Shown piece after piece: positions 24-20,661 of a DNA stretch of 50,354 bases. Location: positions 1 to 50,354 of the forward strand of contig CANROF010000011.1 in NCBI GenBank assembly GCA_947632155.1, in the 5' to 3' direction. Origin of the DNA: an uncultured Oscillospiraceae bacterium (lineage in GTDB: Bacteria > Bacillota > Clostridia > Oscillospirales > Oscillospiraceae). The notes under the pieces were generated by a model. The model was given only the letters and a program-made list of their open reading frames with translations. It made no database searches and was not told the origin of the DNA. Positions within the stretch are counted from its first letter, which is position 1. Each line of letters opens with the position of its first letter. A program made the translations under genes and the position numbers.

Positions 24-228
24 CTGTCGGAAAAGCCCTGACGGGCTTTTCCGACAAGGGGAACGTGCGGGAAATTTACGCTGAATTTTGCGAAATTCAG
101 CGTAAACTTCCCTGCTGTTTTGCTCCGCGCACGGCCCGTAGGGCCGCACACTCCGCAAAACAAAAGGGATTTTTTCCAAGGCACATGTCCTTGGAAAAAA
201 TATAGAATTTGAGTTTTTTGACAACCTG
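24..228 (+). repeat. Four-hairpin interspersed element, copy A
   Basis: Structured repeat of about 205 bp. Stem I pairs 26-38 with 43-55. Stem II pairs 75-88 with 93-106, with an outer GGGAA/TTCCC clamp. Stem III pairs 116-123 with 155-162 and holds an inner CGGCCC/GGGCCG hairpin. Stem IV pairs 170-180 with 190-200. The ends are imperfect inverted repeats (TGTCGGAAAA and TTTTTTGACA). Homologous to copies at 9391-9588 (reverse) and 20460-20661 (same orientation), with compensatory changes in the stems. A short GC hairpin (229-246) follows at the side of the SLOG gene, which ends at 260 on the minus strand. Function unknown. Confidence 0.85.
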
Positions 229-259
229 CCCCGCCGAAAGGCGGGGGGAGACGGGGCGC

Positions 260-769
260 TTATTCCGGGATTTGAATCTCGATGATCTCGAGCCCCAAGC
301 TTCTGGCGTAGTTCACCGTCTGCATGGTGCCGCCGGGCTTGAAGTCGTAGACGGCGATGAGGATGGAGGCGGAGTCCACCATGTACCGGTTGCGGCGAAG
401 CATACACTCCGGGGTGTACTCCCGGGAAACCAGGGTCTGCCTGTCGCACTGGTGGAGGATATAGTAGTACCGCTCCCGCTCCTGCGGCGTCCAGGCGGCC
501 GACTGCGTCTCGCAGGGCACGGCGGCCTCCAGCTTCACGTCGGGCCACTCGTCCCGGAGGGCTATCACCGACTCGGCGAAGTACATGTCGCACCCCTTGG
601 CCATGCCGCATATGTAGTGGCGCACGCCGGCCTCATACACCGCGCGGACGGCGTCCTCGATGCGGCGCTTGAGCTCCACGCACCGGAGGTCCCGCTCGTC
701 ATATCTCCACGGCAGCTTCTCCGGCCGGTGGCCGGTGAAGGCGCACACCGCCCCCCGCGTAATATCCAT
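260..769 (-). CDS. YpsA-like SLOG family protein (DUF1273)
   Basis: A 169-residue cytoplasmic protein of the SLOG (Rossmann-like nucleotide-binding) superfamily, YpsA/DUF1273 branch. Visible signatures are an N-terminal FTGHRPEKLPW, a central CGMAKGCDMYFAE, the RRNRYMVD stretch and a late PGGTMQTVNYA loop. These are the usual ligand-binding positions of the fold. Length is normal for the family. The ATG at 769 is preceded by AAGGAGG. Family members are linked to nucleotide-derived ligand sensing and, in some Firmicutes, to cell division, but the ligand here is unknown. Monocistronic; divergent from the ABC exporter; repeat copy A lies at its 3' side. Confidence 0.85.
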   Translation of the reverse strand: MDITRGAVCAFTGHRPEKLPWRYDERDLRCVELKRRIEDAVRAVYEAGVRHYICGMAKGCDMYFAESVIALRDEWPDVKLEAAVPCETQSAAWTPQERERYYYILHQCDRQTLVSREYTPECMLRRNRYMVDSASILIAVYDFKPGGTMQTVNYARSLGLEIIEIQIPE

Positions 770-796
770 CCCGCCGCCTCCTTGAGCTTTTTCTAT

Positions 797-825
797 ACTA
801 TACTATATCCGCCCCGGTTTGTCAA
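797..825 (-). promoter_or_regulatory. Sigma-A promoter of the SLOG gene
   Basis: Read on the minus strand: -35 TTGACA (820-825), a 17-bp spacer and -10 TATAGT (797-802), ahead of the start at 769. Divergent from the exporter promoter. Confidence 0.65.
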
Positions 826-836
826 AAAAGTCTTGC

Positions 837-865
837 TTGCACGGTGGGTTTAACTGTGATACAAT
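837..865 (+). promoter_or_regulatory. Sigma-A promoter of the ABC exporter
   Basis: TTGCAC (837-842), 17-bp spacer, TACAAT (860-865), followed by the start codon at 899 with an AAAGGAG ribosome binding site. Confidence 0.6.
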
Positions 866-898
866 ATCCGGGCATCAAACTAAAGGAGCGGGCTCAAA

Positions 899-2647
899 AT
901 GAAACGGGATTTTAAAAACTGGGGACTTTTTCGTATTTTCATAAGCTACTTTAAGCCGCACATGGGGCTTTTCGCGCTGGACATGGCCTGCGCGCTGGCG
1001 ATCTCGCTGGTGGACCTGGCCTTTCCCTACGCCTCACGGCTGTGCCTCTATGAGCTCATCCCGGAAGATCTCTACGGGGCCTTCTTCGCCGTGGTGGGGA
1101 TCGTCGTGGCCTCCTACATCCTGCGGGCGCTTTTGCAGTACGTGGTCATCTACTGGGGCCACGGCTTCGGCGTGCTGGTGGAGGCGGACATAAGGGAGGA
1201 CCTGTTCACGCACCTCCAGACCCTCCCCATGAGCTTTTTTGATTCCAACCGCACGGGGCACCTGATGAGCCGCCTCACGGCGGAGCTTTTTGACATCACG
1301 GAGCTTGCCCACCACGGGCCGGAGGACGTCTTTATCTCCACCGTCACCGTGGCCGGGGCCATCGCCATCCTCTTCACCGTCCAGTGGCGGCTGGCGCTGG
1401 TGATGCTCATCCTCATACCGCTCTTTTTGACCGTGGCGACGCTGAACCGCAAGCGCCTGCGGGACACCTCCCGGAACGTAAAGCGCGTCACGGCCTCCAT
1501 AAACGCGGACATCGAGTCCAGCCTCTCCGGGATGCGTACCGCCAAGGCCTTCGCCAACGAGGGCTCCGAGCACAGCAAATTCGACGCCGCCAACGACCGC
1601 TTCCGAGTCTCCAAAAAGGACCAGTACAAGGCCATGGGCGTCTTTCAGAGCTCCCTGGAGCTGTTCACCTCCATCATGCCCGTGGCGGTCATCGCTTACG
1701 GAGGCTTACTCATCATGAGGGGCTACATGGACTACCGGGACCTCATCACTTTCACGCTCTACACCTCCACCTTCATAACGCCCATCCGGAAGCTGGCCAA
1801 TCTCTCCGAAATGCTGGTGAACGGCACGGCGGGGCTCTCGCGCTTCGTGGAGCTCATGCGGGTGGAGCCGGAGCTTGTGGACAAGCCCGACGCTGTGGAG
1901 CTCAAAAACGTCCGGGGGCGGATAGACGTCAACGACGTGAGCTTCTCCTACGGCCGGGACGACGCCGAGGTCCTGCGGCATGTGAGCCTCCACGTCTCCC
2001 CCGGGGAGACGGTGGCGGTGGTGGGGCCCTCCGGCGGGGGAAAGACCACGCTTTGCAGCCTCATCCCCCGGTTTTACGACGTGACGGGCGGCTCCATCAC
2101 CGTGGACGGCCTGGACGTCCGGGACGTGACGCAAAAGAGCCTCCGGCGGAACATCGGCGTGGTGCAGCAGGACGTGTTCCTGTTCGCCGACACCGTCATG
2201 AACAACATCCGCTACGGCCGCCCCGGCGCCACGGACGACGAGGTGGCCGAGGCCGCCCGCCGGGCCGAGATCTACGACGACATCATGGCCATGCCCCAGG
2301 GCTTCGATACATACGTGGGGGAGCGGGGGGCGCTTTTGTCCGGGGGACAGAAGCAGCGCATCTCCATCGCCCGCATATTCTTAAAAAATCCCCCGGTGCT
2401 CATCTTGGACGAGGCCACGTCGGCGCTGGATTCCGTGACGGAGGCGAAGATCCAGCGGGCCTTCGACGAGCTGGCCAGGGGCCGCACCACCCTCATCATC
2501 GCCCACCGCCTCTCCACCGTCCGCTCCGCCGGGAGAATCCTGGTGATAAGGGACGGCGTCATCACCGAGCAGGGCACCCACGCCGAGCTTCTGGCAAAAA
2601 ACGGGGATTACGCGAACCTGTACAATACGCAAAATCTGCATATGTGA
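899..2647 (+). CDS. ABC exporter, fused permease and ATPase
   Basis: A 582-residue half-transporter of the MsbA/LmrA type. An N-terminal six-helix type-1 exporter domain (about residues 15-310) is followed by one nucleotide-binding domain. The ATPase shows Walker A GPSGGGKTT (about 375-383), the signature LSGGQ (about 480), Walker B VLILDEATSALD (about 500) and the switch histidine in IIAHRLST. It should work as a homodimer in the membrane, exporting a lipid, drug or peptide. Nothing here indicates the substrate. Start at 899 is backed by AAAGGAG. It stands alone, with no partner half-transporter beside it, which favours a homodimer. Confidence 0.92.
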   Translation: MKRDFKNWGLFRIFISYFKPHMGLFALDMACALAISLVDLAFPYASRLCLYELIPEDLYGAFFAVVGIVVASYILRALLQYVVIYWGHGFGVLVEADIREDLFTHLQTLPMSFFDSNRTGHLMSRLTAELFDITELAHHGPEDVFISTVTVAGAIAILFTVQWRLALVMLILIPLFLTVATLNRKRLRDTSRNVKRVTASINADIESSLSGMRTAKAFANEGSEHSKFDAANDRFRVSKKDQYKAMGVFQSSLELFTSIMPVAVIAYGGLLIMRGYMDYRDLITFTLYTSTFITPIRKLANLSEMLVNGTAGLSRFVELMRVEPELVDKPDAVELKNVRGRIDVNDVSFSYGRDDAEVLRHVSLHVSPGETVAVVGPSGGGKTTLCSLIPRFYDVTGGSITVDGLDVRDVTQKSLRRNIGVVQQDVFLFADTVMNNIRYGRPGATDDEVAEAARRAEIYDDIMAMPQGFDTYVGERGALLSGGQKQRISIARIFLKNPPVLILDEATSALDSVTEAKIQRAFDELARGRTTLIIAHRLSTVRSAGRILVIRDGVITEQGTHAELLAKNGDYANLYNTQNLHM

Positions 2648-3110
2648 AGAAATGGGCCCGCCGGAAAGAGGAGCATTCCGGAACAATGGGCGGCCCCGAT
2701 GTCAATGTCATTAAGTTAAGCAAAATCTGAGCCTCAAATTTAACGCGATAACCGATAATCTCGCTGTACGGGCCGTGACCGCAGGGAATGCCCTTGGGCA
2801 CGCCCACAGCGGCCCATTCCGGTTTATTGCCGCGCACCGTTGAACGGAGGGCGGGAGCGCAACAAAAGCGCGGGCCGATGTGGTCATCGGCCCCTACATG
2901 GAAGATTTCGCGGCTATCGGAAATGTTCGAATTCCCTCGTAGGAGGTTTTTCGTTGTGCAGCATTATGGCCGCTAACTGAATGACATTGGCCCAGATGTG
3001 CCGCCCGCGCCCCGATAACGCAAATCGCCCAAATTGACGCGATAACCAATCCTATACGCCGTAAGGGCCGATGACCACATCGGCCCATCCCCGGTTTTTG
3101 CCATAATAAA
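2648..3110. repeat. Field of dispersed variable-arm hairpin repeats (left cluster)
   Basis: This gene-free stretch of about 500 bp is mostly copies of one repeat. Units lie near 2733-2825 (+), 2868-2902 (reverse) and 3019-3094 (+). Each has a conserved shoulder related to GCCCAAATCAACGCGAAAACC, then a GC hairpin opening with GTACGGGCC or GTAGGGGCC and closing with GGCCCATCCCCGG. The arms differ between units, yet each pairs with itself. The same family recurs at 49.8-50.3 kb. Short open frames across it look spurious. Confidence 0.7.
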
Positions 3111-3114
3111 CGAT

Positions 3115-3142
3115 CGCCGCGCGGTGCGCGGCGAATACTTTT
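3115..3142. terminator. Hairpin at the 3' side of the DUF6056-like gene
   Basis: A 7-bp GC stem (3115-3121 with 3127-3133). On the plus strand it is followed by a T-run (AATACTTTTT). On the minus strand, the direction of the neighbouring gene, it is followed by ATCGTTTATTA, so termination there is only moderately supported. Confidence 0.4.
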
Positions 3143-3156
3143 TGGTGTTATTTGAC

Positions 3157-4482
3157 TTATTTCCCAATCACGCTGTCGAGGCCGTGGTAGGAGGCGAACT
3201 GGGTGTTGGGCCAGGTGTCGGCGGTGTCGGTGGCCAGGTCCCGGAGGCCCCAGAAGGCACTGTAGGGGGTGGTGGGGTGGACCAGCGGGAGCTCCAGGTC
3301 GCGCTCACCGGCCGCCAGGGCGCTTTCGATGACGTCCTCCCGGTCCCTGTATTCCGCGTAGCTCCGCCAAATGCTGTAGGTCCCTTCGATCAGGGAGAAG
3401 GCAAAGACCACCGTCAGCGCCGCGACGGCGGAGCACCGCAGGGCCTCGCCGGCGCGGCACACGTCAAACCCCGCCAGCAGGAGGGCGCAGGCCAGGATGA
3501 GCAGCGTCACCGGGGCGCTGGCGCAGCGCTCCGGGTAGTACCCGGCGAATATGAGCATGTAGTTGCCGCCCACGGCCCCCACGGCCAGGACCGCGGAGAG
3601 CGCCACGCGCTTCCCCGGGACCTTCATGAAGAGCGCCAGCACCGCCAGCACCGCCCAGATAATGAGCAGCGTCCGGCCAAAGTCACGGAGCATCTGCGTG
3701 GCGGAGGAGATGTTGCCGATCAGCGTCCCCAGGGCCATACTGCTCTTTTTGGCCTTCATCTCCGCGGGCATGCTCATGAGGAGCATATAGCCCACGCCGC
3801 CGATGCCGATGGGGGCCAGGAGCCAGCTTTTGAGGCTCCTTTTGTCAAAAAGGAGGGACAGCGCCATCAGCGCCGCGGCGATAAAGAGGCCCACAAAGCT
3901 CATGACCTCGATGTACATCCCGAAGGGCAGGGCCAGGACGCAGAAGACCGCCCGCTGCCAGGACTTTTTTATGAGCTCTCCGCCGTGCATGAGCCGGTAG
4001 ACATAGGGGGAAATAAAGAGCATCCCGAAGCCCATGCCCCAGAGGTAGTTCACCGACCCCAACTGCCAGAGGGCCACCTGGCCGAAAACGGGCATCCAGT
4101 ACCAAAGGGCCATGAAAATGCCGGCGCCGATGAGGATGTTCCGCTTTGCACCCACCGAGGCGACGCGCCAGAGGACGTACCAGAGGAGCGTGAACATCCC
4201 GGCGTTTGCGAAGTTGAAGGGGGCCTTGGGCCAGATCATAAAGAGCTCCCCGAAAAAGTGGCTCACCACCCGGCCGTTCATGGCGTAGCTGTGGACGTAC
4301 ATGGACTTTACCACGTCCAGGACCGACTCCACGTGTTCGTGGTCGTGAAAGCCGTAGCGGTAGACGTAGTCGTCCGCCACATAGGGCGTCAGGAAATTCA
4401 AAAGCAGCATAAAGAGAAAGACCGCCAGGGCCAGACCCGCGGCGCACCATTTTGAATTCAAGGCCGAAGTGAGCCTTTTCAT
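3157..4482 (-). CDS. Polytopic membrane protein, DUF6056-like
   Basis: About 441 residues with roughly ten to twelve hydrophobic segments and short polar loops. It resembles the DUF6056 group, whose layout suggests GT-C-type membrane glycosyltransferases. An early acidic-aromatic loop (PYVADDYVYRYGF) after the first membrane helix sits where GT-C enzymes carry their acidic motif. The start is placed at 4482 (MKRLTSALNS) because a G-rich Shine-Dalgarno stretch precedes it. An upstream in-frame ATG at 4509 has no ribosome binding site. Substrate unknown; a cell-envelope polysaccharide role is an inference. Divergent from obgE. Confidence 0.7.
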   Translation of the reverse strand: MKRLTSALNSKWCAAGLALAVFLFMLLLNFLTPYVADDYVYRYGFHDHEHVESVLDVVKSMYVHSYAMNGRVVSHFFGELFMIWPKAPFNFANAGMFTLLWYVLWRVASVGAKRNILIGAGIFMALWYWMPVFGQVALWQLGSVNYLWGMGFGMLFISPYVYRLMHGGELIKKSWQRAVFCVLALPFGMYIEVMSFVGLFIAAALMALSLLFDKRSLKSWLLAPIGIGGVGYMLLMSMPAEMKAKKSSMALGTLIGNISSATQMLRDFGRTLLIIWAVLAVLALFMKVPGKRVALSAVLAVGAVGGNYMLIFAGYYPERCASAPVTLLILACALLLAGFDVCRAGEALRCSAVAALTVVFAFSLIEGTYSIWRSYAEYRDREDVIESALAAGERDLELPLVHPTTPYSAFWGLRDLATDTADTWPNTQFASYHGLDSVIGK

Positions 4483-4523
4483 ACCGGCAATTCCCCCCTG
4501 AAAAAACATCTGGGTACAGCAAT

Positions 4524-4552
4524 ACTATAATATCCCCCGGGGGAAATGTCAA
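4524..4552 (-). promoter_or_regulatory. Promoter of the DUF6056-like gene
   Basis: On the minus strand: TTGACA (4547-4552), 17-bp spacer, TATAGT (4524-4529). The spacer contains a perfect CCCCCGGGGG palindrome that could be an operator or simply a GC-rich spacer. Confidence 0.6.
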
Positions 4553-4558
4553 TAATTC

Positions 4559-4587
4559 TTGAAAATACCCTCCGCATCTGGTAGAAT
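4559..4587 (+). promoter_or_regulatory. Promoter of obgE
   Basis: TTGAAA (4559-4564), 17-bp spacer, TAGAAT (4582-4587). It is back-to-back with the divergent promoter; the two -35 boxes are 6 bp apart. Confidence 0.55.
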
Positions 4588-4631
4588 AACAGCAAATACC
4601 GAATACTTCATTTTTCAAAGGAAGAGACGAG

Positions 4632-5897
4632 ATGTTCGTAGACAAAGCGACGATCGAGATAAAGGCGGGGCGCGGCGGCAACGGCGCCGTGGCCTTCCAC
4701 CGGGAAAAATACGTGGCCTCCGGCGGGCCCGACGGCGGCGACGGAGGGGACGGCGGCGACGTGGTGCTGATCCCGGACGCCAACATGTCCACCCTTATGG
4801 ACTTTCGCTATAAGCGCAAGTACGCCGCCGGCAACGGCGCCGACGGCACGGGCAAGCGCTGCTCCGGCAAGCGGGGGGAGGACCTGGTCATCCGCGTCCC
4901 CCTGGGCACCGTGGTCCGGGACAGGGCCACCGGGGCGGTGATGGCGGATATGTCCGCCACGGAGCGCTTTGTGGCCGCCCGGGGCGGCTCCGGCGGCTGG
5001 GGCAACGCCCACTTCGCCACCCCCACCCGCCAGGCCCCCCGGTTTGCCAAGGCGGGCCTGCCGGGAGCGGAGCGGGAGATCGTCCTGGAGCTGAAGCTCC
5101 TGGCGGACGTGGGGCTGGTGGGCTTTCCCAATGTGGGCAAGTCCACGCTTTTGGCCGCCGTCACAAGGGCCCGGCCGAAGATCGCCAATTACCACTTCAC
5201 CACGCTCTTTCCGAATTTAGGCGTGGTCTACGCCGGGGAGAACCGGAGCTTCGTCCTGGCGGACATCCCCGGCATCATCGAGGGCGCCAGCGCGGGCGCC
5301 GGGCTGGGCCACGATTTTCTGCGGCACATCGACCGCTGCCGCCTGGTCTTGCACGTGGTGGACGTCTCCGGCAGCGAGGGCCGGGACCCCATCGAGGATT
5401 TTGAGACGATAAACCGGGAGCTTGCGGAGTATTCCCCGGCACTGGCCTCCCGGCCCATGGCGGTGGCCGCCAACAAGTGCGACATGGCCTCGCCGGAGCA
5501 GATAGAGCGCCTTAAAATGCGCGTCTGCGCCGCCGGGATGGATTTCTTCCCCATCTCCGCCGCGGCCCAGACCGGCACCCAGGAGCTTGTCCGGGCGGTG
5601 AGCTATAAGCTTGCGTCCCTCCCGCCCATCGCCACCTTTGAGCCGGAGTACGTGGAGCCGGAGGAGCCGGAGGAGCTGCCCGACCCCGAGATCGACCGGG
5701 AGGACGGCGTCTGGTATGTGGACGGCGGCTGGGTGGAGCGGCTGGTCCAGAACGTGAACTTCGGCGACTACGAGTCCCGGATGTACTTCGACCGGACCCT
5801 CCGGGACCGGGGGGTCTTCCAAAGGCTCGAGGACCTGGGCGTTGAGGAGGGCGACACCGTCTGCGTCAGCGGCATAGAGTTTGAGTATAAAAGATGA
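4632..5897 (+). CDS. obgE: GTPase ObgE/CgtA
   Basis: A 421-residue Obg-family GTPase, associated with the large ribosomal subunit, stress adaptation and, in spore formers, sporulation onset. Three domains are clear. The glycine-rich Obg fold (1-157) has the GGDGGDGGDV stretch. The G domain (about 158-330) has P-loop GFPNVGKST (164-172), DIPGIIEGA, NKCD and SAAA. The C-terminal OCT domain (about 350-421) has the WYVDGGWVERLV segment. Length is typical for Gram-positive Obg. The ATG at 4632 follows GGAAGAG. It stands alone here, without the rplU-rpmA genes that often precede it. Confidence 0.97.
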   Translation: MFVDKATIEIKAGRGGNGAVAFHREKYVASGGPDGGDGGDGGDVVLIPDANMSTLMDFRYKRKYAAGNGADGTGKRCSGKRGEDLVIRVPLGTVVRDRATGAVMADMSATERFVAARGGSGGWGNAHFATPTRQAPRFAKAGLPGAEREIVLELKLLADVGLVGFPNVGKSTLLAAVTRARPKIANYHFTTLFPNLGVVYAGENRSFVLADIPGIIEGASAGAGLGHDFLRHIDRCRLVLHVVDVSGSEGRDPIEDFETINRELAEYSPALASRPMAVAANKCDMASPEQIERLKMRVCAAGMDFFPISAAAQTGTQELVRAVSYKLASLPPIATFEPEYVEPEEPEELPDPEIDREDGVWYVDGGWVERLVQNVNFGDYESRMYFDRTLRDRGVFQRLEDLGVEEGDTVCVSGIEFEYKR

Positions 5898-5927
5898 GGC
5901 CGGGGCCCTGCGGGGCGGGCAAATCTC

Positions 5928-5956
5928 TTGACAATTTATGTGGGAAATAATACAAT
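5928..5956 (+). promoter_or_regulatory. Promoter of the xpaC-telA operon
   Basis: TTGACA (5928-5933), 17-bp spacer, TACAAT (5951-5956), about 40-50 bp before the first gene. Confidence 0.7.
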
Positions 5957-6006
5957 ATATACGTGTAGAAATTTCCTGAAGGGAGGCGCGGGACACGAAA
6001 AAGACC

Positions 6007-6642
6007 GTGATAAAGCGCTCGGCGGCGCCGTTTTACGCCGTGGCCACGCTGTGGCTGGTGTGGTGTGTGGTCCTGCCGCTTTATAAGCTGTGGCACCTGG
6101 CGCTGCTCATCGCCCTGTCGGCGGGGGTGTTCGCGCTCTTTTCAAAGCTCTTCCCCGGCAAAAAGGTGGAGGTGGAGGTCCCCGAGCCGGAGCCGGAGCC
6201 CGTCACCACGGGGGACGCGGAAACCGACGCCCTCCTGCGGGAGGGGGAGCAGGCCGTCCGGGAGCTCAAGCGCCTGGGCGCGTCCATCCGGGAGCCCTCC
6301 GTGAGGGCGCGGGTGGAGGAGCTGGCGGGGCTGACGGACAAAATTTTCCGGGACATCGTGGACGACCCCAAGGACGTGCCCCAGGTCCGGCGCTTCGCCG
6401 GGTATTACCTGCCCACCACCATGAAGCTCCTGAACGCCTACGACCGCATGAGCGGCGAGGCCGCGGGGGAGAACGTGTCCGGGACGCTTCGGCGCATCGA
6501 GGACATCCTGGACACCACCGTGGCGGCCTACCGCAAGCAGTACGACGCCCTCTTCGCCAACGAGGCGCTGGACATCGAGACGGACATAACGGTTTTGGAG
6601 TCCATGCTCAAGCGCGAAGGGCTCGCCGGGAAAGATTTTTAA
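6007..6642 (+). CDS. xpaC: XpaC-like membrane protein
   Basis: A 211-residue member of the XpaC family, named after 5-bromo-4-chloroindolyl phosphate hydrolysis, which commonly precedes telA. Two adjacent membrane helices (about residues 8-48) are followed by an acidic-proline linker and a mostly helical cytoplasmic domain. The annotated start is the GTG at 6007, but the strong GGGAGG box (5981-5986) is 20 nt away from it. The in-frame codon with ideal spacing is ACG at 5995, which would give the natural-looking N-terminus (M)KKTVIKR. A rare ACG start or a T-to-C change of an ATG is therefore plausible. First gene of a four-gene operon. Confidence 0.8.
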   Translation: MIKRSAAPFYAVATLWLVWCVVLPLYKLWHLALLIALSAGVFALFSKLFPGKKVEVEVPEPEPEPVTTGDAETDALLREGEQAVRELKRLGASIREPSVRARVEELAGLTDKIFRDIVDDPKDVPQVRRFAGYYLPTTMKLLNAYDRMSGEAAGENVSGTLRRIEDILDTTVAAYRKQYDALFANEALDIETDITVLESMLKREGLAGKDF

Positions 6643-9357: not shown

Positions 9358-9390
9358 GAAAAGAAAGAGCCCGCCGGGCTCTTTCTTTTC
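9358..9390. terminator. Terminator after the TPM gene
   Basis: A perfect 15-bp stem (9358-9372 with 9376-9390) with a 3-nt loop and a T-rich descending arm, 9 bp after the stop codon. It is symmetrical and immediately abuts repeat copy B. Confidence 0.75.
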
Positions 9391-9588
9391 AGGCTGTCGA
9401 AAAATTCAAATTCAATATTTTTTCCAAGGACATGTGCCTTGAAAAAAATCCCTTTTGTCGCACAAGTGCCGCCAACGGCGGCGCGCAGGGCGACAGCAGG
9501 AATATTTTCTCTGAATTTCGCAAAATTCAGAGAAAATATTCCGCATGTTCCCCTTGTCGGAAAAAGGCCAAAGGCCTTTTCCCGACAG
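9391..9588 (-). repeat. Four-hairpin interspersed element, copy B
   Basis: Reverse-oriented copy of the element at 24-228. Stem IV pairs 9418-9429 with 9437-9447. Stem III pairs 9456-9461 with 9488-9493, with an inner GCCGCC/GGCGGC. Stem II is a perfect 20-bp stem (9497-9516 with 9521-9540). Stem I pairs 9554-9567 with 9571-9584. Stem II differs outside the apex from copies A and C but stays fully paired. The element sits between two similar terminators in the convergent gap between the TPM gene and spoIIID. Confidence 0.85.
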
Positions 9589-9590
9589 TC

Positions 9591-9620
9591 TGAGAAAGAG
9601 CCGGCGGGCTCTTTCTTTTT
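9591..9620. terminator. Terminator after spoIIID, near-duplicate of the one at 9358
   Basis: A 10-bp stem (9591-9600 with 9605-9614) followed by TTTT. Its arms share AGAAAGAGCC and GGCTCTTTCT with the terminator on the other side of repeat copy B. Confidence 0.65.
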
Positions 9621-13955: not shown

Positions 13956-14085
13956 TTTTTCCTCCTCTTATACTTTTTCTTGAAAGAAAAAGTATCAAAA
14001 AGAACTTTATAACGCACCTAAATGGTTGCTATACCTACATTATCGCCCGGTAACGAAAGATGCTTCTAATTGGAGAATAGTATTA

Positions 14086-14238: not shown

Positions 14239-15295
14239 TTTCCGGTTCCTCCTTTTTTATGAATATGGCCGCCAGGGCCGAAAGGGCCGTCAGAGCCCCC
14301 GCCACTGGGCCCCGGGCATTCTCGGAGAGGGGAATGAAGAAGGGGACCGCCGACCCTAAGGCGATGGCCAGCTTCGAAAGTCCGAAGGCGAAGCCCGGAT
14401 ACTCCGGCATGGCCCCGGCCAGGGCGGCCTGGGTCACCGGCACGGACATGTTCATGAGGAATATGGCCGGTATCGCCAGCGCCGGGGCCATGCCCGTCAG
14501 GGCGAAGAGGCCGCCGGAGATGAGAAGCGGCGCAAGGACGGTATCCCGCCCGCCCAGCTTGTCCGCCGCGGCGCCGCCGGCGAGCTTCCCGAGGCAGATC
14601 ATCACCGCGGGCAGCATGGCGAGCGCCCCCGGCAGGGCCGGTCCCGTGGGCGCAAGACCGCAGGCGCAGGTGTGGACGGCGACAGAGGCAAAGAGCGCCG
14701 CCGCCAGCGCGGCCAGATCCAGCTTTCGCGGCAGCCGGGCCAGCTCCGGACAGCCGCCGGCGCCCTCCGGCGAGGGCGCCAGGAACATGCTGAGGCCCGA
14801 GGCCCCGGTTATCGCCGCCAGCGCCAGCGGGAAGGCCACGGCGGGGTTTGCCCCGCCAAGATATGTACCCAGTCCCACGCCCAGGGCCCCGGCGCAGTTA
14901 AATAGCCCCACGGGCGTGAGCTTTCCGCCGCAGTCACGCAGCACCGACGACCCCGCGCCCACGTGGAAGCCCGCGTTGCCGAGGATGGTCACCGCCATGG
15001 CCGCTATCCCCAGGCCCGCGGGGAGGGCGAAGGCCCGGACGAGATACCCCCCGGCCAGCCCCAGGGCCGTCACCGCCGCGCCCAGGGAGGCGAAGCTCTC
15101 CCGTGAGATCTTCTTCACATCAATAAGCGCCCCCAGCGGCGCCTGGAGGCCGAAGGCCAGGAGGTTGTAGGCGAGAAAGCTCAGCGCCAGCCCCTGCCCC
15201 ATGCCCAGGGCGGGCCGCAGAAGTCCAAAAAGCACCGTGAAGCAGGCCAGGTCCACCGTGAAGTGCGAAAAGGCGAGGACGGCCGTCTTTTTCAT
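14216..15295 (-). CDS. MFS-type permease
   Basis: 359 residues with about twelve membrane helices. The early AFSHFTVDLACFTVLFG resembles fosmidomycin-resistance-like members of the major facilitator superfamily, which carry a similar H..VD motif. The start is the ATG at 15295 (MKKTAVLAF), preceded by AAGGGG. Longer readings upstream lack a ribosome binding site and add a non-family extension. Substrate unknown. It heads a minus-strand group with three small membrane proteins and is divergent from the sirtuin gene. Confidence 0.8.
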   Translation of the reverse strand: MKKTAVLAFSHFTVDLACFTVLFGLLRPALGMGQGLALSFLAYNLLAFGLQAPLGALIDVKKISRESFASLGAAVTALGLAGGYLVRAFALPAGLGIAAMAVTILGNAGFHVGAGSSVLRDCGGKLTPVGLFNCAGALGVGLGTYLGGANPAVAFPLALAAITGASGLSMFLAPSPEGAGGCPELARLPRKLDLAALAAALFASVAVHTCACGLAPTGPALPGALAMLPAVMICLGKLAGGAAADKLGGRDTVLAPLLISGGLFALTGMAPALAIPAIFLMNMSVPVTQAALAGAMPEYPGFAFGLSKLAIALGSAVPFFIPLSENARGPVAGALTALSALAAIFIKKEEPENVQSNTP

Positions 15296-15314
15296 GGAAG
15301 CATCCCCTTTTTTC

Positions 15315-15343
15315 TTGATAATCCCATTATAAAATGATACAAT
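15315..15343 (+). promoter_or_regulatory. Promoter of the sirtuin gene
   Basis: TTGATA (15315-15320), 17-bp spacer, TACAAT (15338-15343). It overlaps the divergent permease promoter, so the two could interfere. Confidence 0.6.
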
Positions 15344-15354
15344 CAAAATATCAA
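15326..15354 (-). promoter_or_regulatory. Promoter of the MFS permease
   Basis: On the minus strand: TTGATA (15349-15354), 17-bp spacer, TATAAT (15326-15331), interleaved with the sirtuin promoter. Confidence 0.6.
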
Positions 15355-15377
15355 CAACAAATCGGGAGGATCGGGCC

Positions 15378-16097
15378 ATGAACGATAAAATTGAAGCGCT
15401 CCAAAGGCTCATCGACGAGTCAAGCTATATCGTCTTTTTCGGCGGCGCCGGGGTGTCCACCGAGAGCGGTATCCCGGATTTTCGCAGCGTGGACGGACTC
15501 TACAACCAGAAATACGCCTACCCGCCGGAGGAGATACTGAGCCGCACGTTCTTTGATCGGAACCCGGAGGAATTTTACCGCTTCTACCGGGACAAGCTCA
15601 TCGTGGGGGAGGCCAGGCCCAACGCGGCGCACCTCTACCTTGCGGAGCTGGAGAAGCGGGGAAAGCTCCGGGCCGTGGTGACCCAGAACATCGACGGGCT
15701 CCATCAGGCCGCCGGGAGCCGCAACGTCTTAGAGCTCCACGGCACGCTTTTGGAGAATTACTGCGTCCGCTGCGGCAGACGCTATGACGCCGGCTACTGC
15801 CAGAAGGCCCAGGGCGTGCCCCGGTGCTCCTGCGGCGGCATCGTGCGCCCGGACATCGTTTTATACGAGGAGGGACTTGACCAGGACGTTCTGACCCGGG
15901 CCGTGACGCACATCTCCCGGGCGGACCTGCTCATCATCGGCGGCACGTCCCTGGCCGTGTACCCCGCCGCTGGGCTCATCCACTATTTCCGCGGCAAGCA
16001 CCTGGTCCTCATCAACAAGTCCCCCACCCCCATGGACGGCCTGGCGGAGCTGGTCATACCGGAGAAGATCGGGGAGGTCTTCTCCCAGCTTCACTGA
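15378..16097 (+). CDS. cobB: NAD-dependent protein deacylase (sirtuin)
   Basis: A 239-residue Sir2-family enzyme removing acyl groups from lysines with NAD. Seen in order: FGGAGVSTESGIPDFRS (NAD site), TQNIDGLHQAAGS, LELHGT with the catalytic histidine, four zinc-type cysteines (CVRC and CSC with a nearby Cys), and GTSLAVYPAAG. Length and order are standard. ATG at 15378 follows GGGAGGA. Its 3' end overlaps the convergent amidase gene by 7 bp. Confidence 0.95.
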   Translation: MNDKIEALQRLIDESSYIVFFGGAGVSTESGIPDFRSVDGLYNQKYAYPPEEILSRTFFDRNPEEFYRFYRDKLIVGEARPNAAHLYLAELEKRGKLRAVVTQNIDGLHQAAGSRNVLELHGTLLENYCVRCGRRYDAGYCQKAQGVPRCSCGGIVRPDIVLYEEGLDQDVLTRAVTHISRADLLIIGGTSLAVYPAAGLIHYFRGKHLVLINKSPTPMDGLAELVIPEKIGEVFSQLH

Positions 16098-16582
16098 GCC
16101 TCTTTCCGGACGCCTGAGATGTGCAAAAAGCGCGCCCGGGCGAAAACGTAGGTGTCCAGGGGCCGGTCCAGGGCGTCCAGCGTGTGGGCGCAGACGAGTA
16201 TCCGCGGCGACGTCTCCACGATCACCGGCGAGTGGTAAAAATGCCCGTCGGTGGCGCCGAGCTGCACGATGTCGCCGGGCCGGGCCTCCCCCCGCCGGAC
16301 CTCCCGCGCCCAGGGGCCGGGGCCCCGGTTGCCGACCAGGAAATCGTACAGGAACTCCACCCCCGTCCAGGAGGCGGTGCGCTCACTTGAGTTTACATAA
16401 TACCACCCAGTGACGGGCGTCCAATTCATGACCCCCGCTCCGGCGTAGATGCACTGGGACGCGAAATTCGTGCAGTCGCCGCCGATGCCCTCAAAGTCGT
16501 AGTACGCGGGATTGCGCCCCAGCGCCCAGCGCCGGGCGTACTCCACGGCGGAGGCGGCGTTGTAAGGGATAACGAGAAGCAT
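16091..16582 (-). CDS. Amidase_6-domain protein
   Basis: A 163-residue protein made entirely of the putative amidase domain PF12671 (Amidase_6), an NlpC/P60-like cysteine-peptidase fold. GGDCTNFASQC supplies the probable catalytic cysteine (C37), and the HSPVIV segment the histidine. AVEYARRWALGRNPAYYDF is the usual start of this domain. There is no signal peptide, so it may act inside the cell or in the spore compartment. A GAGGTGAGGT box precedes the ATG. Convergent with, and overlapping, the sirtuin gene. Confidence 0.85.
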   Translation of the reverse strand: MLLVIPYNAASAVEYARRWALGRNPAYYDFEGIGGDCTNFASQCIYAGAGVMNWTPVTGWYYVNSSERTASWTGVEFLYDFLVGNRGPGPWAREVRRGEARPGDIVQLGATDGHFYHSPVIVETSPRILVCAHTLDALDRPLDTYVFARARFLHISGVRKEAQ

Positions 16583-16619
16583 ACCTCACCTCATAAGTCG
16601 CAATTTATCCGGGAATGTG

Positions 16620-16877
16620 ATACTAATCCCTAATCAAAAACTCCAATTCGCGACGGCCTTTTTTGCCTCGTCGTCGCTCGAGCCGCTTAACCTCGGGCTC
16701 CCTTTGGTCGCCCTCAGGCGCAGGCTCGGCTCCTCCTCTCCCCACACGGCGGGCCGTGTGGGAGCCCCGATGCGTCAGACGGCTTGACAATACATACAGT
16801 ATTCTCTACGCCGTCTTCCTCGCCTGACGCAAAAAATCCTCGCCGCTCGGTTTGAGCTTTTAATCAGGGATTAGTAT
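16620..16877. mobile_element. MITE-like element with 24-bp terminal inverted repeats
   Basis: A 258-bp non-coding element. The left end (16620-16643) begins ATACTAATCCCT and the right end (16854-16877) is its imperfect inverse, ending AGGGATTAGTAT. TGA on both flanks may be a 3-bp target duplication. Inside is another long inverted repeat (TGCGTCAG with CTGACGCA, about 16769-16832). The last 37 bp (16841-16877) recur exactly at 25487-25523. No transposase is present, so movement in trans is inferred. It fills most of the gap between the amidase and LysM/GH18 genes. Confidence 0.7.
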
Positions 16878-16973
16878 GACGCCCTGAGGCGGAAATTCCC
16901 GGCCGCCCATTCTATGCTTATTCCCCGCACTTTTCCCCTCCCGCTCCATATAATGGGCCGAGGAGGGATTTTT

Positions 16974-18254
16974 ATGCTTATTCACGTGGTCCGGCGGGGA
17001 GATACGCTGTGGTCCATCGCCCGGCGGTACGGGGTGTCGGTGGCGCGCCTGCGGTCCGACAACGGCCTTACGGAAAACCAGATTCTGGTGGTGGGCCAGG
17101 CGCTCATCGTGACGCTGCCGTCGGAGGTCTACACCGTCCGGGCCGGGGACACGCTCTATTCCATCGCCCAGAGCTACGGCGTCACGGTGTTGGAGCTTAT
17201 TCAGAATAACCCGGAGCTTATTGAAAACGGCGTCCTCCGCCCCGGGCAGCAGCTCACGGTGGCCTTTCAGGGCGGCAAGCGGCGGAGCATCGCCGTCAAG
17301 GGCTACGCCTACCCCACGATAAGGCGGGAGGTGCTCCGCAGGGCCCTGCCGTATCTCACGTATCTTTCGGTGTTCTCCTACGGCTTCACCGAGTCCGGAG
17401 AGCTCATCCCGGCGGACGACAGGCGGCTCATCGCCGCGGCCTGGGAGTTTGGCGCCGCGCCGATACTGGTGTTCACGAGCCTCGACGAATCCGGCGGCTT
17501 CTCCACGGCCAGGGCCTCGCGGCTCTTTTCCGACGCGGCGCTTCAGGAGACGGTGCTCAATAATCTCCTGTCCGCCATGCGGGAGAGGGGATACATGGGC
17601 CTGGAGATGGACTTTGAGTACATCGCCCCGGACGACGCCCAGGGGTATCAGGCCTTCCTGCGCCGGGCCGTGGAGGTCATGGGCCCCAACGGGTATACCG
17701 TCAGCGCGGACCTGGCGCCCAAGACCCGCGCCGACCAGCCGGGGCTCCTCTACGAAGCCCACGACTACCCCGCCATCGGCTCCATCGTGGACCGTGTGCT
17801 CCTTATGACGTACGAGTGGGGCTACACTTATGGGCCGCCTATGGCGGTGGCGCCGGTGGACCAGGTGGAAAAGGTGGTGCGCTACGCCGTCAGCGCCATA
17901 GACCCCGGGAAGATCCTGATGGGCGTGCCCAACTACGGCTACGACTGGGCGCTGCCGTATGAACAGGGCATCTCCCGGGCGGAGAACATCGGCAATCAGG
18001 GGGCCGTGCTCCGGGCCGCCCGGTACGGCGCGGAGATCGAATTCGACGAGACGGCCCAGTCGCCCTTTTACTATTACTACTCCGGCGGGACGCGGCACGT
18101 GGTGTGGTTTGAGGACGTGCGCAGCATCGACGCCAAGCTCCGGCTCGCCGACAGGTACGGCGTTCTCGGCGTGGGGTACTGGAATATCATGCGGGCCTTT
18201 GCTCAAAACTGGGCCCTGCTGGCGGCCAGGTACTCGATCGCGAAAGTGATATAG
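16974..18254 (+). CDS. LysM-LysM-GH18 spore cortex-type hydrolase
   Basis: 426 residues: two N-terminal LysM domains (about 2-46 and 50-96; HVVRRGDTLWSIARRYGVS and YTVRAGDTLYSIAQSYGVT) and a GH18 TIM-barrel (about 105-426). The layout is that of YaaH/SleL, the N-acetylglucosaminidase of spore cortex remodelling. The catalytic strand reads GLEMDFEYI, with the acid E in the DxE position. There is no signal peptide, as in YaaH/SleL. ATG 16974 follows GGAGGG; an upstream ATG at 16914 lacks a ribosome binding site. CATATAAT about 25 bp upstream resembles a sporulation-type -10, but no clear -35 was found. Confidence 0.9.
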   Translation: MLIHVVRRGDTLWSIARRYGVSVARLRSDNGLTENQILVVGQALIVTLPSEVYTVRAGDTLYSIAQSYGVTVLELIQNNPELIENGVLRPGQQLTVAFQGGKRRSIAVKGYAYPTIRREVLRRALPYLTYLSVFSYGFTESGELIPADDRRLIAAAWEFGAAPILVFTSLDESGGFSTARASRLFSDAALQETVLNNLLSAMRERGYMGLEMDFEYIAPDDAQGYQAFLRRAVEVMGPNGYTVSADLAPKTRADQPGLLYEAHDYPAIGSIVDRVLLMTYEWGYTYGPPMAVAPVDQVEKVVRYAVSAIDPGKILMGVPNYGYDWALPYEQGISRAENIGNQGAVLRAARYGAEIEFDETAQSPFYYYYSGGTRHVVWFEDVRSIDAKLRLADRYGVLGVGYWNIMRAFAQNWALLAARYSIAKVI

Positions 18255-18350
18255 CCCCAGGATTGCAAAAACGGCGGTTTTGCGCCATGAGGCTTGCATT
18301 TTCCCCAAAAAGTGATAGCATAGAATTAATTATGCTACTGGAGAAGTAAA

Positions 18351-19871
18351 ATGTCTGAAATACACGAGCACAGGGGAAAAACCGTCATAACCGCCCTGGA
18401 CCGGCTGCCCTACGGGCAGGAGGGCGACCCCGGGGAGACTGGGAGAGTCGGCAAGGCCGCCGCCCCGGAGGGCGTCACAAGGCGCGAGCTCTATCGGGAC
18501 GTCATCCTCATCGCCATGCCGAGCCTCATCGAGCTGGTGCTGACGCAGCTCACCTCCATCGCCGACCAGATGATGGTGGGAAATCTTCCGGGGTACGAGG
18601 GAATCGTGGCCCTCACCGCCGTGGGGCTGGCCTCCCAGCCGAAGTTCCTGCTGATGACCATGGTCCAGGCCATGAACGTGGGCGCCACGGCCGTCATAGC
18701 GCGCTTCCGGGGACAGCAAAAGCGCGAAAAGTGCAACGACGTATTCAAGCACGCCATGATTTTAAACCTCCTGATGAGCGTCTTTTTCATGGCGGTGGGG
18801 CTTATGACCTCCGAGTGGCTCATCCGCTTCATGGGCGGCACCGGCATCTCCGAGGAGGCCATCATGCTGGGCAAGGAGTACCTGGACATCCAGCTCTACG
18901 GCTTCATCCCGCTGTGCATGACCATCACGGTGACGGCGGCGCTGCGGGGAATCGGCGACACAAAGACGCCGATGATCTACAACACCGTGGCAAACGTCAT
19001 AAACCTGGGCTTCAACTACGTCATGATCTACGGCCACTTCGGCGTGCCAAAAATGGGCGTGGCCGGGGCCTCCTGGGCCACCAACATCGGCCAGACCGTG
19101 GCCTTTTTCATCGCTATGTGGGTGAGCCTTGGGAAAAAGAAGTACGTCTACCTGGACCTCCGGGAGAAATTCGTCTTCAACCGCGGGCTCATGGGGGATG
19201 TTATAAACATCGGCGTGCCCTCCATGGTGGAGCAGCTTCTCATGCGCCTGGGGCTCATCATCTACACCCGCCAGGTCACGGGCCTGGGGGACACGGTCTA
19301 CGCCACCCACAACGTCTTGATGTCCATCCAGTCCATGAGCTTCATGGTGGGCCAGGCCTTCGCCGCCGCGGCCACGACGCTGATGGGCCAGTCCATCGGC
19401 AAGCGCCGCTACGATATGTCCGCGGTGTACATGCGCCGGACGCGGGACCTGGGGGTGGTGTTCTCCCTCTTTATGGCGGCGGTTTTGGCGTTCCTCAACC
19501 GGCCTATCATCGCCATGTTCAAAAATGACCCGGCGGTCATCGACATGGGCGCGCCGATTCTCTATCTGCTGGCGGCCTCCCAGCCGCTGCAGGCCGACCA
19601 GTTCATCGTCTCCGGCGGCCTTCGGGGCGCGGGGGACACGCGGTTTACCGCCGTGGTCATGGCCGTGACGGTCCTGGGCCTTCGGAGCGGCCTTGCCATC
19701 ATCACCATCAACTACATGAATCTGGGCCTCTGGGGCGCGTGGATCGCGCTGGTCATCGACCAGTGCTCCCGGACCTTCATCATGGCCCTGCGCTATCACT
19801 CCGGCAGGTGGAAGGAGATCAGCCGCTCCTTCAAGCACGCCCACCCCAGGGAACACGAGGCCGAAAAATAA
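18351..19871 (+). CDS. MATE family multidrug/metabolite exporter
   Basis: 506 residues with twelve predicted membrane helices in two halves, preceded by an unusual polar N-terminal extension of about 45 residues rich in charged and Gly/Pro residues. IAMPSLIELVLTQLTSIADQMMVG and ALRGIGDTKTPM (repeated as GGLRGAGDTRFT in the second half) are typical MatE positions. It should exchange Na+ or H+ for cationic compounds. GGAGAAG precedes the ATG. A strong bidirectional terminator follows. Confidence 0.93.
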   Translation: MSEIHEHRGKTVITALDRLPYGQEGDPGETGRVGKAAAPEGVTRRELYRDVILIAMPSLIELVLTQLTSIADQMMVGNLPGYEGIVALTAVGLASQPKFLLMTMVQAMNVGATAVIARFRGQQKREKCNDVFKHAMILNLLMSVFFMAVGLMTSEWLIRFMGGTGISEEAIMLGKEYLDIQLYGFIPLCMTITVTAALRGIGDTKTPMIYNTVANVINLGFNYVMIYGHFGVPKMGVAGASWATNIGQTVAFFIAMWVSLGKKKYVYLDLREKFVFNRGLMGDVINIGVPSMVEQLLMRLGLIIYTRQVTGLGDTVYATHNVLMSIQSMSFMVGQAFAAAATTLMGQSIGKRRYDMSAVYMRRTRDLGVVFSLFMAAVLAFLNRPIIAMFKNDPAVIDMGAPILYLLAASQPLQADQFIVSGGLRGAGDTRFTAVVMAVTVLGLRSGLAIITINYMNLGLWGAWIALVIDQCSRTFIMALRYHSGRWKEISRSFKHAHPREHEAEK

Positions 19872-19876
19872 AGCAC

Positions 19877-19930
19877 AAAAAAACCGCCGCCCCGGCCCTT
19901 TTCTGAGCCGGAGCGGCGGATATTTTTATT
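19877..19930. terminator. Bidirectional terminator between the MATE and phosphatase genes
   Basis: A 13-bp GC stem with one mismatch (19884-19896 with 19907-19919), flanked by an A-run on the left and TATTTTTATT on the right, serving both converging genes. Confidence 0.85.
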
Positions 19931-20369
19931 GAAGCGTGTCCAAAAGGGCCGCGCAGCCGCGGGTTATGTCCTCCCAGGTCTTTTCAAAATCCCCGGTGTA
20001 CCAGGGGTCCGCCACGTCCCGGGGGGTGGAGGTGTAGTCCAGCAGGAGGCGCAGCTTCCCCAGCCTGTCGCCGCCGAAAAGGCGCTGCATAGAGCGCATA
20101 TTGGCCCGGTCCATGCCGATGATGAGGTCGAATTTGCCGTAGTCCTTGGCCGTGAGCTGCCGCGCCCGCTTCCCGGACGGGTCCAGGCCGTGGGCCACGA
20201 GCACCCGCCGCGCCGGGGGATAGACGGGGTTGCCCAGCTCCTCCGCGCTGGTGGCGGCGGACTCCACGCAGACCTCCACCCCCCGCCGCGCCGCCATGTC
20301 CCGCAGCACAAGCTCCGCCATAGGGCTCCGGCAGATATTCCCGTGACACACAAAAAGCACCTTTGTCAT
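19926..20369 (-). CDS. Low-molecular-weight protein-tyrosine phosphatase
   Basis: 147 residues, the standard family size. The P-loop CHGNICRS (C8, R14) sits at the N-terminus, and the general-acid aspartate lies in DPWYTGDF near residue 120. Such enzymes act on bacterial tyrosine kinases or phospho-arginine proteins; the partner is not encoded here. AAGGAG precedes the ATG. It has a perfect consensus promoter at 20430-20458. Confidence 0.95.
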   Translation of the reverse strand: MTKVLFVCHGNICRSPMAELVLRDMAARRGVEVCVESAATSAEELGNPVYPPARRVLVAHGLDPSGKRARQLTAKDYGKFDLIIGMDRANMRSMQRLFGGDRLGKLRLLLDYTSTPRDVADPWYTGDFEKTWEDITRGCAALLDTLQ

Positions 20370-20429
20370 TTTTTCTCCTTATAAATAGGCCGCGAGTAGA
20401 ATCGGGCCGGGAGGCCCACACACCCGGTC

Positions 20430-20458
20430 ATTATATATTGCCGAAAAGCTCCTGTCAA
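20430..20458 (-). promoter_or_regulatory. Consensus promoter of the phosphatase gene
   Basis: On the minus strand: TTGACA (20453-20458), 17-bp spacer, TATAAT (20430-20435). The -35 box directly abuts the edge of repeat copy C. Confidence 0.75.
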
Positions 20459-20459
20459 C

Positions 20460-20661
20460 CTGTCGAAAAAGCCCTGACGGGCTTTTCCGACAAGGGGAAC
20501 GTGCGGGAAATTTTCGCTGAATTTTGCGAAATTCAGCGAAAACTTCCCTGCTGTCGCCCTGCGCGCACGCCCAAAGGGCGCACGCTTGTGCGACAAAAGG
20601 GATTTTTTCCGACGCGCATGTCGCCGGAAAAAATATTGAAATTGAGTTTTTTGACAAACTG
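20460..20661 (+). repeat. Four-hairpin interspersed element, copy C
   Basis: Same orientation as copy A. Stem I: 20462-20474 with 20479-20491. Stem II: 20511-20524 with 20529-20542. Stem III: 20552-20557 with 20590-20595, with an inner CGCCC/GGGCG. Stem IV: 20603-20611 with 20625-20633. Differences from copy A in stems II and III are matched by complementary changes in the partner strand. It lies between two minus-strand genes. Confidence 0.85.

Follow-up and report, generated by a model that had tools for sequence, protein, structure and literature searches.

The window analysed here, a stretch of 50,354 nucleotides from an uncultured Oscillospiraceae bacterium, holds three copies of an element of ~205 bp with four hairpins apiece, as well as one isolated hairpin II. 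Copy A (21..228, + strand) has the left terminal repeat AAAACCTGTCGG, in which the CAG motif is degraded, and the right end TTTTTTGACAACCTG; its left target copy is not fully readable, because the contig begins at base 1. Copy B (9390..9592, − strand), with the ends CAGACTGTCGGG...TTTTTCGACAGCCTG, is flanked by a target duplication that scores 21.5 against a null 99th percentile of 10.2. According to Pfam and a terminator scan, the left target copy (9593..9620, − strand) is a terminator-like hairpin next to the end of a spoIIID-like gene (SpoIIID by Pfam), and the right one (9362..9389, − strand) is the same hairpin adjoining the end of a TPM-domain gene; the middle of the right hairpin differs from that of the left, being flipped, as judged by eye, and one base longer. 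Copy C (20456..20661, + strand; ends CAACCTGTCGAAAA...TTTTTTGACAAACTG) comprises hairpin I (20461..20492), which holds the left terminal repeat, hairpin II (20505..20548), which ends in the tip TGAATTTTGCGAAATTCA and whose lower stem is variable and covarying, hairpin III (20552..20595), with a covarying basal stem of 8 bp, and hairpin IV (20602..20634), a module common to other genera and families. A palindromic hairpin (20662..20699, + strand) abuts the right end of copy C; no matching hairpin was found on the left, and the target-duplication score of 5.0 is under the threshold. The isolated hairpin II module (44543..44620, − strand) lies directly 3′ of the stop codon of an AA_kinase/ACT gene and has the linker ACGTGCG and the same tip, and its GC-rich stem is quite unlike that of the other copies in sequence, yet paired.

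The first-pass annotation had placed the three four-hairpin copies correctly, and the changes that it quoted for stems II and III were borne out. A covariance model (R1), whose alignment includes the window copies themselves, matches each of A, B, and C at an E value of 2e-69 or better. Folded as RNA, the copies have z-scores of −9.2 (A, + strand), −9.3 (B, in the orientation of the element), and −5.8 and −11.1 (C, + and − strands, respectively). A promoter scan of the window found no promoter common to copies B and C. Searches against Rfam gave no gathering matches in the window, one chance-level match (E 0.29), and three sub-threshold matches in 20 loci; a further scan of 20 loci gave three gathering matches (6S, ssnA, and fluoride), all of which lie in DNA beside elements. 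A known RNA family was therefore ruled out, in agreement with the earlier impression that no described family is involved.

At least 40 near-full-length copies are present in the host genome, a draft of 89 contigs (40 of 40 scored, out of 200 candidates), and its 2.5 Mb contain 108 exact hairpin-II tips, compared to 0 for a reversed-pattern control. Projection onto the model gives an element length of 188–218 bp (126 copies, including partial ones), with no transposase gene inside. Partial or interrupted copies (<185 model positions) were left out before counting, reducing the aligned set from 126 to 100 copies. Of these, 39 come from loci recruited by BLAST with copy C, which is itself row L001 of the set (30 from the host, nine from other genomes), one (L047) from a search for IS1182, two from the window (copies A and B), and the other 58 from 80 stretches picked either by the exact hairpin-II tip (35, of which 14 were used) or by BLAST (45, of which 44 were used). 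The rows are related, and the counts and p-values given below thus overstate their independence.

The ends of the element are CAG..TGTCRAAAA inverted repeats (CAGCCTGTCGAAAAA / CAGTTTGTCAAAAAA). A duplicated target scoring above the null 99th percentile flanks 68 of 99 copies (median score 18.5 versus 6.0), and the remaining 31 have no clear target duplication; nor is one clear in 36 of the 48 relatives outside the genus. Among the 68 duplicated pairs, 36 are identical and 60 are hairpin-forming (≥55% self-paired). Five pairs align better when one member is reverse-complemented, indicating loop flips outside the element, as also seen by eye at locus L339, and flips are visible by eye within the element as well. 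With such flips present in the duplicated targets too, a hairpin-templated mutational process is the probable source of some of the exchange of arms and loops. Short, devoid of a transposase gene, bounded by terminal inverted repeats, flanked by target duplications, and present in high copy number, the element is, on these sequence features, a palindrome-targeting MITE, and the initial lean away from a transposon does not hold, given also that it has an autonomous relative of the IS1182 family.

Such relatives are found in sister species as 1.5 kb IS1182-family elements that have the same ends and duplicate whole palindromes. Both ends could be read in nine IS1182-family elements; seven of them (L041–L045, L061, and L068) have CAG..TGTC ends and are all flanked by duplicated palindromes, whereas the other two, L046 and L056 (GGGGCTGTGAAAA), have different ends and no duplicated palindrome. 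The autonomous elements with matching ends from the same genus are L042–L045 and L061. The family model NF033551 is found in 16 of 34 genomes, above its cut-off in six, and scores 371–385 bits for L042–L044 and 339.5 bits for L045 (cut-off 270); the Pfam domains DDE_Tnp_1_6 and DUF772 are present in the transposases of L041–L043. No member of the cognate transposase group (87–100% identical) was detected in the 89-contig draft of the host genome at E ≤ 1e-20, although this genome has the most hairpin-II tips among those counted. The host does have other IS1182-family genes, which score under the NF033551 cut-off. Cognate transposase and tips occur together in genomes G001, G031, G011, G012 (fragments), G013, and G015. 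In the 100 copies, both ends are of the sublineage-1 type in 75 cases and of the sublineage-2 type in two, two are mixed, and 21 have at least one unclassified end; the 5′ and 3′ end types may thus be coupled to two IS1182 sublineages, a pattern that is suggestive only. The autonomous elements gave no convincing match to the hairpin structure, the one weak match (L043, 25 bits) overlapping the right end and flank.

The copies are concentrated at gene ends: for 25 of 28 measurable copies, the predicted 3′ end of a gene is no more than 138 nt away. Orientation to the neighboring gene is unbiased (about 13 copies the same way and 12 the opposite way, by eye), and isolated hairpin II modules also sit at gene ends. 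A search of 15 genomes for the gene next to copy C gave matches in 12, with usable orthologues only in G032 and G028, both of which end in one hairpin with no element (by eye). At 29 loci matching spoIIID, several of them partial matches, a full copy occurs only at the host's own and diverged copies at three; synteny past spoIIID is not kept among the loci compared.

Pairing is maintained as the sequences change. In the 100 full copies, standard pairs occupy 91.3% of 5468 pair cells, compared to 83.4% after shuffling and 38.5–61.3% when partners are slid by 1–3 columns. Two-sided changes occur at 34 of 55 pairs (20.3 when shuffled), and there are 367 double-change cells versus 92.1 in shuffled alignments; none of 500 shuffles reached such values. 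The retention of pairing through sequence change, noticed at first in three copies, is therefore strong on the full set, and covariation lies far beyond chance. Indeed, the stems of different subfamilies are wholly different in sequence and still paired, which rules out that these are recent copies with a structure by descent alone. Changes per site on terminal branches amount to 3.0–3.1 in linkers 1 and 3, 2.1–2.4 in stems I, III, and IV, and 5.2 in lower stem II. Linker conservation was considered as evidence of selection and dropped, because on recount stems I, III, and IV turned out to change less per site than the linkers do. The parts that are near-constant while the lower stem varies are loop 2 (1.25 changes per site) and the hairpin-II tip (0.4, with 14 of the 100 rows having been picked by this tip).

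The two strands are not equivalent. On the reader's strand, non-Watson-Crick cells of the 100 copies are A.C in 315 cases and G.T in 23, and are therefore mostly G.U on the opposite strand. Counted as events, the ratio is 47 to 16 over hairpins II, III, and IV; hairpin III alone (12 versus 4) and hairpin IV alone (8 versus 3) are not significant, and G-C pairs alone (19 versus 10) are close to the expectation from unpaired sites. The opposite strand is the better folder in 98 of the 100 copies; among 48 relatives outside the genus, it is so in 39 (control 48 of 94). Copy B is an exception in that the reader's strand has a small advantage (−97.6 versus −92.9), and copy A is split, with a z-score favoring the reader's strand (−12.4 versus −11.3) and a lower energy on the opposite one. 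The structure thus goes beyond inverted-repeat ancestry: the asymmetry is better explained by a folded single strand, be it RNA or ssDNA, than by a cruciform or by templated mutation on its own. The first-pass suggestion of selection on structure thus stands in spirit, pointing to one folded single strand, whereas its alternative of extruded DNA, if taken to mean a cruciform, is disfavored.

Relatives of hairpin IV were found in 11 of 168 genera of the order, across families and often with relatives of hairpin III. They covary to a degree that beats both shuffles and slid partners, with a number of pair types that is not above shuffles. Copies outside the genus were picked by the hairpin IV pattern (≤2 mismatches; a few by BLAST), and the conservation of hairpin IV there is therefore partly by choice; the alignment (A3) takes in 97 of 123 distinct sequences. 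Over the class, a second model (R2) matched four of 391 genomes under strict filters, every one in the order of the window. A 251-base stretch of one relative, L313, matched one of 72,556 plasmid records, Vescimonas fastidiosa pMM35_01, in 18 places, the best match covering 45% of the query, and also matched three unannotated human faecal phage records. Among the listed titles and beginnings of abstracts from the open-licence PMC literature on IS1182 targets, MITEs, and Oscillospiraceae repeats, no account of the element was found.

Our main reading, to which we assign a probability of roughly three in four, is that of a high-copy MITE that is moved by IS1182-type transposition, duplicates gene-end palindromes, and has one strand kept folded by selection. 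IS1182-family DDE transposases would move the element in trans, presumably by acting on its ends. Insertion would take place beside palindromes, mostly gene-end hairpins, with duplication of the whole palindrome, so that the element ends up with a copy on either side and the hairpin next to the gene is left whole. We infer selection for the folding of one single-stranded form, which would probably be an opposite-strand RNA, or else ssDNA, and hairpin-templated mutation may supply many of the paired changes. More tentatively, and with somewhat less than even odds, the elements could represent a so far unrecognised, mobile structured RNA superfamily of Oscillospirales, consisting of modular hairpin arrays with a recurrent III–IV core and an opposite-strand fold. 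IS1182-type transposition would carry them into gene-end palindromes, each of which is copied so that a terminator may flank the element on either side.

The selective part of the main reading competes with the view that this is an ordinary MITE whose stems are paired only through template switching during replication, arm being copied onto arm, with no selection on structure. The mutational mechanism itself has been described (parts of PMC8794818), and it would fit the loop flips seen inside the element and in the duplicated targets, the 62 paired-to-paired doubles against 63 pair-breaking singles on terminal branches, the four private doubles where 0.03 are expected under independence, and linkers at least as variable as stems I, III, and IV. 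However, template switching is strand-symmetric, yet A.C exceeds G.T and one strand is better folded, also in other genera, and the hairpin-II tip and loop 2 are near-constant beside a changing lower stem; as a full account, we find it rather unlikely. Strand bias bears equally on the proposal that the hairpins are double-stranded DNA cruciforms that serve transposition or act as preferred landing sites, because a cruciform uses both strands and would prefer neither, so that A.C and G.T should balance. The left terminal repeat within hairpin I and the targeting of palindromes by the IS1182 group, as reported for IS1272 in the relevant passages of PMC5678879, speak for a cruciform, and the absence of a convincing structure match in the autonomous elements against it, leaving it improbable.

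A different possibility is that the conserved core is a non-coding RNA useful to the host, for instance an sRNA or 3′ regulatory element, which transposition spreads and the cell retains to its own benefit. The occurrence of a covarying hairpin IV across families, often with hairpin III relatives, the isolated hairpin II modules at gene ends, and the strand-specific fold would all suit such a role, but the site downstream of spoIIID is not conserved over the 29 loci and orientation to the adjacent gene is unbiased, and we regard it as unlikely. Isolated occurrences of hairpin II, in which tip and flanks are constant, and the presence of Y1 proteins in the genus could suggest a REP/REPIN-like element mobilized at hairpin II by a Y1 (RAYT) transposase. 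The tip is absent from the flanks covered at all 30 Y1 loci (≤2 mismatches), and full copies display DDE-type target duplications; this candidate was accordingly rejected and retains very little probability.

Three features come together here: whole palindromes are duplicated by an IS1182-type group, where IS1272 reportedly replaces them; insertion at the terminator side spares the host gene; and the structure of a mobile repeat evolves with strand-specific compensation. The many copies with paired target hairpins also form a natural data set for separating folded-strand selection from template-switch mutation, a question raised for RNA genes in parts of PMC8794818. Should a transcript exist, it would represent an RNA family abundant in these bacteria and missing from Rfam 15.

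The element can be compared to several known systems. REP/REPIN sequences with their RAYTs are high-copy extragenic hairpins, from which it differs in having no hairpin-II tip by the Y1 genes examined and in its DDE-type ends and target duplications. Like bacterial MITEs, as characterized in parts of PMC10969869, it is ~200 bp long, high-copy, and intergenic, with terminal inverted repeats, a duplicated target, and no transposase gene; unlike MITEs in general, its targets are mostly whole gene-end palindromes and its interior is a covarying modular hairpin array with relatives in other families. The pneumococcal BOX, RUP, and SPRITE repeats are likewise high-copy and intergenic with stable secondary structure, BOX is modular, and the ends of BOX and RUP resemble host IS elements, but by their description in PMC3049150 they are set apart by other ends and hosts; the passages concerned do not name palindrome duplication, and the word 'compensatory' is absent from the text. 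The transposase family (NF033551, DDE_Tnp_1_6, and DUF772) and the use of stem-loop targets of varying sequence are shared with IS1182-family insertion sequences, in particular IS1272. For IS1272, passages of PMC5678879 report that the target palindrome is replaced and no duplication is left, unlike the whole palindromes duplicated on both sides of the present element, which do not show IS1272-type replacement; pathway b of the model in Fig 13 of that paper does foresee palindrome duplication.

The three copies of the four-hairpin repeat that the first-pass annotation had described in the window (A, 21–228, forward strand; B, 9390–9592, reverse strand; C, 20456–20661, forward strand) are present where it had placed them, and rank as the top matches when a covariance model of the family is searched. 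The repeat is a mobile element. BLAST of the host genome (2.5 Mb, 89 contigs) yielded at least 40 near-full-length copies (40 of 200 first-look candidates were scored, and all 40 were near-full-length), and the exact tip of hairpin II, its constant end, occurs there 108 times (49 and 59 by strand), with 0 occurrences of the reversed-pattern control. BLAST matches were obtained in 25 of the 34 genomes of the genus, host counted, and the exact tip in 22; the family model R1 has matches in 33 of 60 relatives, and these fall in 3 of 27 genera. Among the 80 loci listed from 90 stretches found in a named-collection scan, 73 belong to MAGs named ‘uncultured Oscillospiraceae’ with ‘Lapin’ in the title, which we infer to mean rabbit, and the other 7 are scattered single matches of the kind that an 18-mer may give by chance. 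We take the order to be Oscillospirales on the strength of these titles.

The ends of the element carry the inverted repeats CAGCCTGTCGAAAAA and CAGTTTGTCAAAAAA. For 99 full copies, the flank on the left was aligned with that on the right, with shuffled partners as the null, and 68 copies displayed a target duplication above the 99th percentile of the null (median 18.5 versus 6.0). The two target copies are identical in 36 of these duplications, and self-pairing reaches at least 55% in 60; they are often perfect hairpins of 25–36 bases, and a few, for example at L005 and L028, are short and non-palindromic. A predicted gene 3′ end lies at most 138 nt away in 25 of the 28 host and nearest copies with a measurable neighbor, a rough, ORF-based distance, with 10 of 39 copies scored inside an ORF, several of which are small frames spanning the element. 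The target copies on both sides of copy B are terminator-like. For the gene next to copy C, two usable orthologues were found (in genomes G032 and G028, 73–74% identity), each of which terminates in a single hairpin and, by eye, lacks the element. At 20430–20458 on the reverse strand, a perfect σ70-like promoter (TTGACA-17-TATAAT), predicted to be directed toward the LMW phosphatase gene, which begins at 20369, has its −35 box straddling the left junction of copy C, whose insertion may have supplied part of it.

A candidate mobilizer is found among IS1182-family elements. The transposase profile NF033551 matched in 16 of the 34 genomes, in 6 of them above the cut-off, and the IS1182-family proteins contain the domains DDE_Tnp_1_6 and DUF772. 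Four of these transposases (L042–L045) sit in 1.5 kb elements with the same ends as the repeat, CAGTYTGTCAAAAAA...TTTTTTGACARNCTG, each between duplicated whole palindromes, and the IS1182-family locus L061 shares these ends. Palindromes are likewise duplicated in a second sublineage (L041 and L068; CAGTCTGTCGACAAACC); duplication was not found for two other IS1182-family elements with different ends (L046 and L056). By the features tested, the repeat groups with the MITEs of IS1182-type elements and works as they do. Counting against this, the cognate transposase was not found in the host genome at E ≤ 1e-20, and has therefore been lost, is unassembled, or is replaced there by the action of another IS1182 member. 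One host copy (L047, 1127–1344), with a sublineage-2-like right end (GGTTTGTCAACAGTCTG), adjoins a fragment of an IS1182-family gene of a different type. RAYT-linked REPs were ruled out on the test made.

Across 100 full copies, the four-hairpin structure stands far above shuffles and slid partners, bearing out the earlier claim that pairing is kept despite sequence change; in line with that annotation, which had not recognized the repeat as a described RNA family, no Rfam family matched in the searches made. The tip of hairpin II is almost constant (0.4 terminal-branch changes per site), and its lower stem is nearly free in sequence (5.2) yet paired. Stems I, III, and IV show 2.1–2.4 changes per site, linkers 1 and 3 show 3.1 and 3.0, and the tail 6.4, giving the linkers no greater constancy than most stems. 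Hairpin II also stands alone as an isolated module at L097, L104, and L121, and in the window at 44543–44620 (reverse strand), directly after an AA_kinase/ACT gene, where the GC-rich paired stem is quite unlike the others and the tip and linker are the same. Six longer members (L093, L100, L106, L107, L115, and L116) have ~100–200 extra, hairpin-rich bases within hairpin III, some with the common motif CTCGTCGTC...CTCCTCTCCCC.

Paired changes could also result from template switching that builds and mends hairpin arms, a described route for their origin and repair (PMC8794818), although we regard this as rather unlikely to be the whole explanation here. Loops are flipped between the two target copies in 5 of 68 pairs and, by eye, at L339, so some process of this kind operates outside the element. 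These flipped loops, detected by script at L039, L095, L154, and L159 and by eye at L023 and L339, indicate that the genomes undergo inversion associated with hairpins. On terminal branches, moreover, double changes are as common as pair-breaking single ones (62 versus 63). However, template switching should be strand-symmetric, whereas the observed departures from pairing are asymmetric: on the strand on which the first-pass annotation read the element, non-Watson–Crick cells comprise 315 A·C, 23 G·T, and 160 others. Hairpin I adds gap artefacts to these counts; without it and three A·C-rich pairs, A·C still exceeds G·T by 61 to 20 cells and 37 to 16 events (p 0.005, not to be taken literally as copies share ancestry, with the bias seen in most lineages). 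Hairpin II alone gives 27 versus 9 events, and hairpins III and IV alone 12 versus 4 and 8 versus 3, neither significant. Where sites are unpaired, A>G is more frequent than T>C, a bias that would favor G·T, and the 6 G·T versus 28 A·C events at A–T pairs run opposite to this expectation. The strand signal rests mainly on A–T pairs, because the excess at G–C pairs (19 A·C versus 10 G·T) is little different from what the preference for G>A over C>T at unpaired sites predicts.

The opposite strand folds more stably in 98 of the 100 copies (median −104.1 versus −92.9 kcal/mol) and has the lower fold z-score in 89; among the window copies, B is an exception on energy and A on z-score. In other genera it is more stable in 39 of 48 copies, compared with 48 of 94 flanking control windows. 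Together, these sequence patterns point to the folding of one single strand, as RNA or ssDNA, and our best guess is that it would be an RNA of the opposite strand. The lack of extra constancy in the linkers and the dependence on A–T pairs lowered our estimate for the main explanation, a MITE moved by IS1182-family transposases with selection probably keeping one strand folded, marginally from 0.78 to roughly 0.77, and slightly raised that for template switching.

The hairpin IV pattern (≤2 mismatches) occurs in 21 of the 394 genomes of the order, representing 11 of its 168 genera, with one match in all for the reversed pattern, and a class-wide search with the wider-family model R2 matched 4 of 391 genomes, none outside this order. 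Many of the contexts inspected have hairpin III relatives before and a further hairpin V after, and are often bounded by CAGCGTGTCGAA...TTTTTCGACAGNCTG. Target duplication exceeds the 99th percentile of the null in 12 of 48 wider-family copies, each at least 53% self-paired, and not in the other 36. Hairpin IV covaries across genera, with 7 of 12 pairs changed on both sides and 43 double cells versus 8.6 in shuffles, but pair types are no more numerous than under shuffling. In its 7-base loop (columns 27–33 of alignment A3), positions 1 and 7 mostly co-switch as C..T or T..C, a non-Watson–Crick coupling with L329 as an exception. Some elements of genus g10 (family f7) have other ends, CTCGCAG...CTGCGAG; these ends, together with the shared hairpin IV, are seen in the multi-hairpin repeats L263–L267 of G042, a genome from another family. 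Modules may have been exchanged between element families.

Among known systems, the repeat fits the MITEs of IS1182-type elements on the tested features, with palindrome duplication as a variant. The IS1182 member IS1272 is reported to replace its target palindrome with no duplication (PMC5678879), whereas the whole palindrome is duplicated around the repeat and L042–L045, an outcome akin to a branch, also foreseen by the model in that paper, in which the stem-loop is duplicated.
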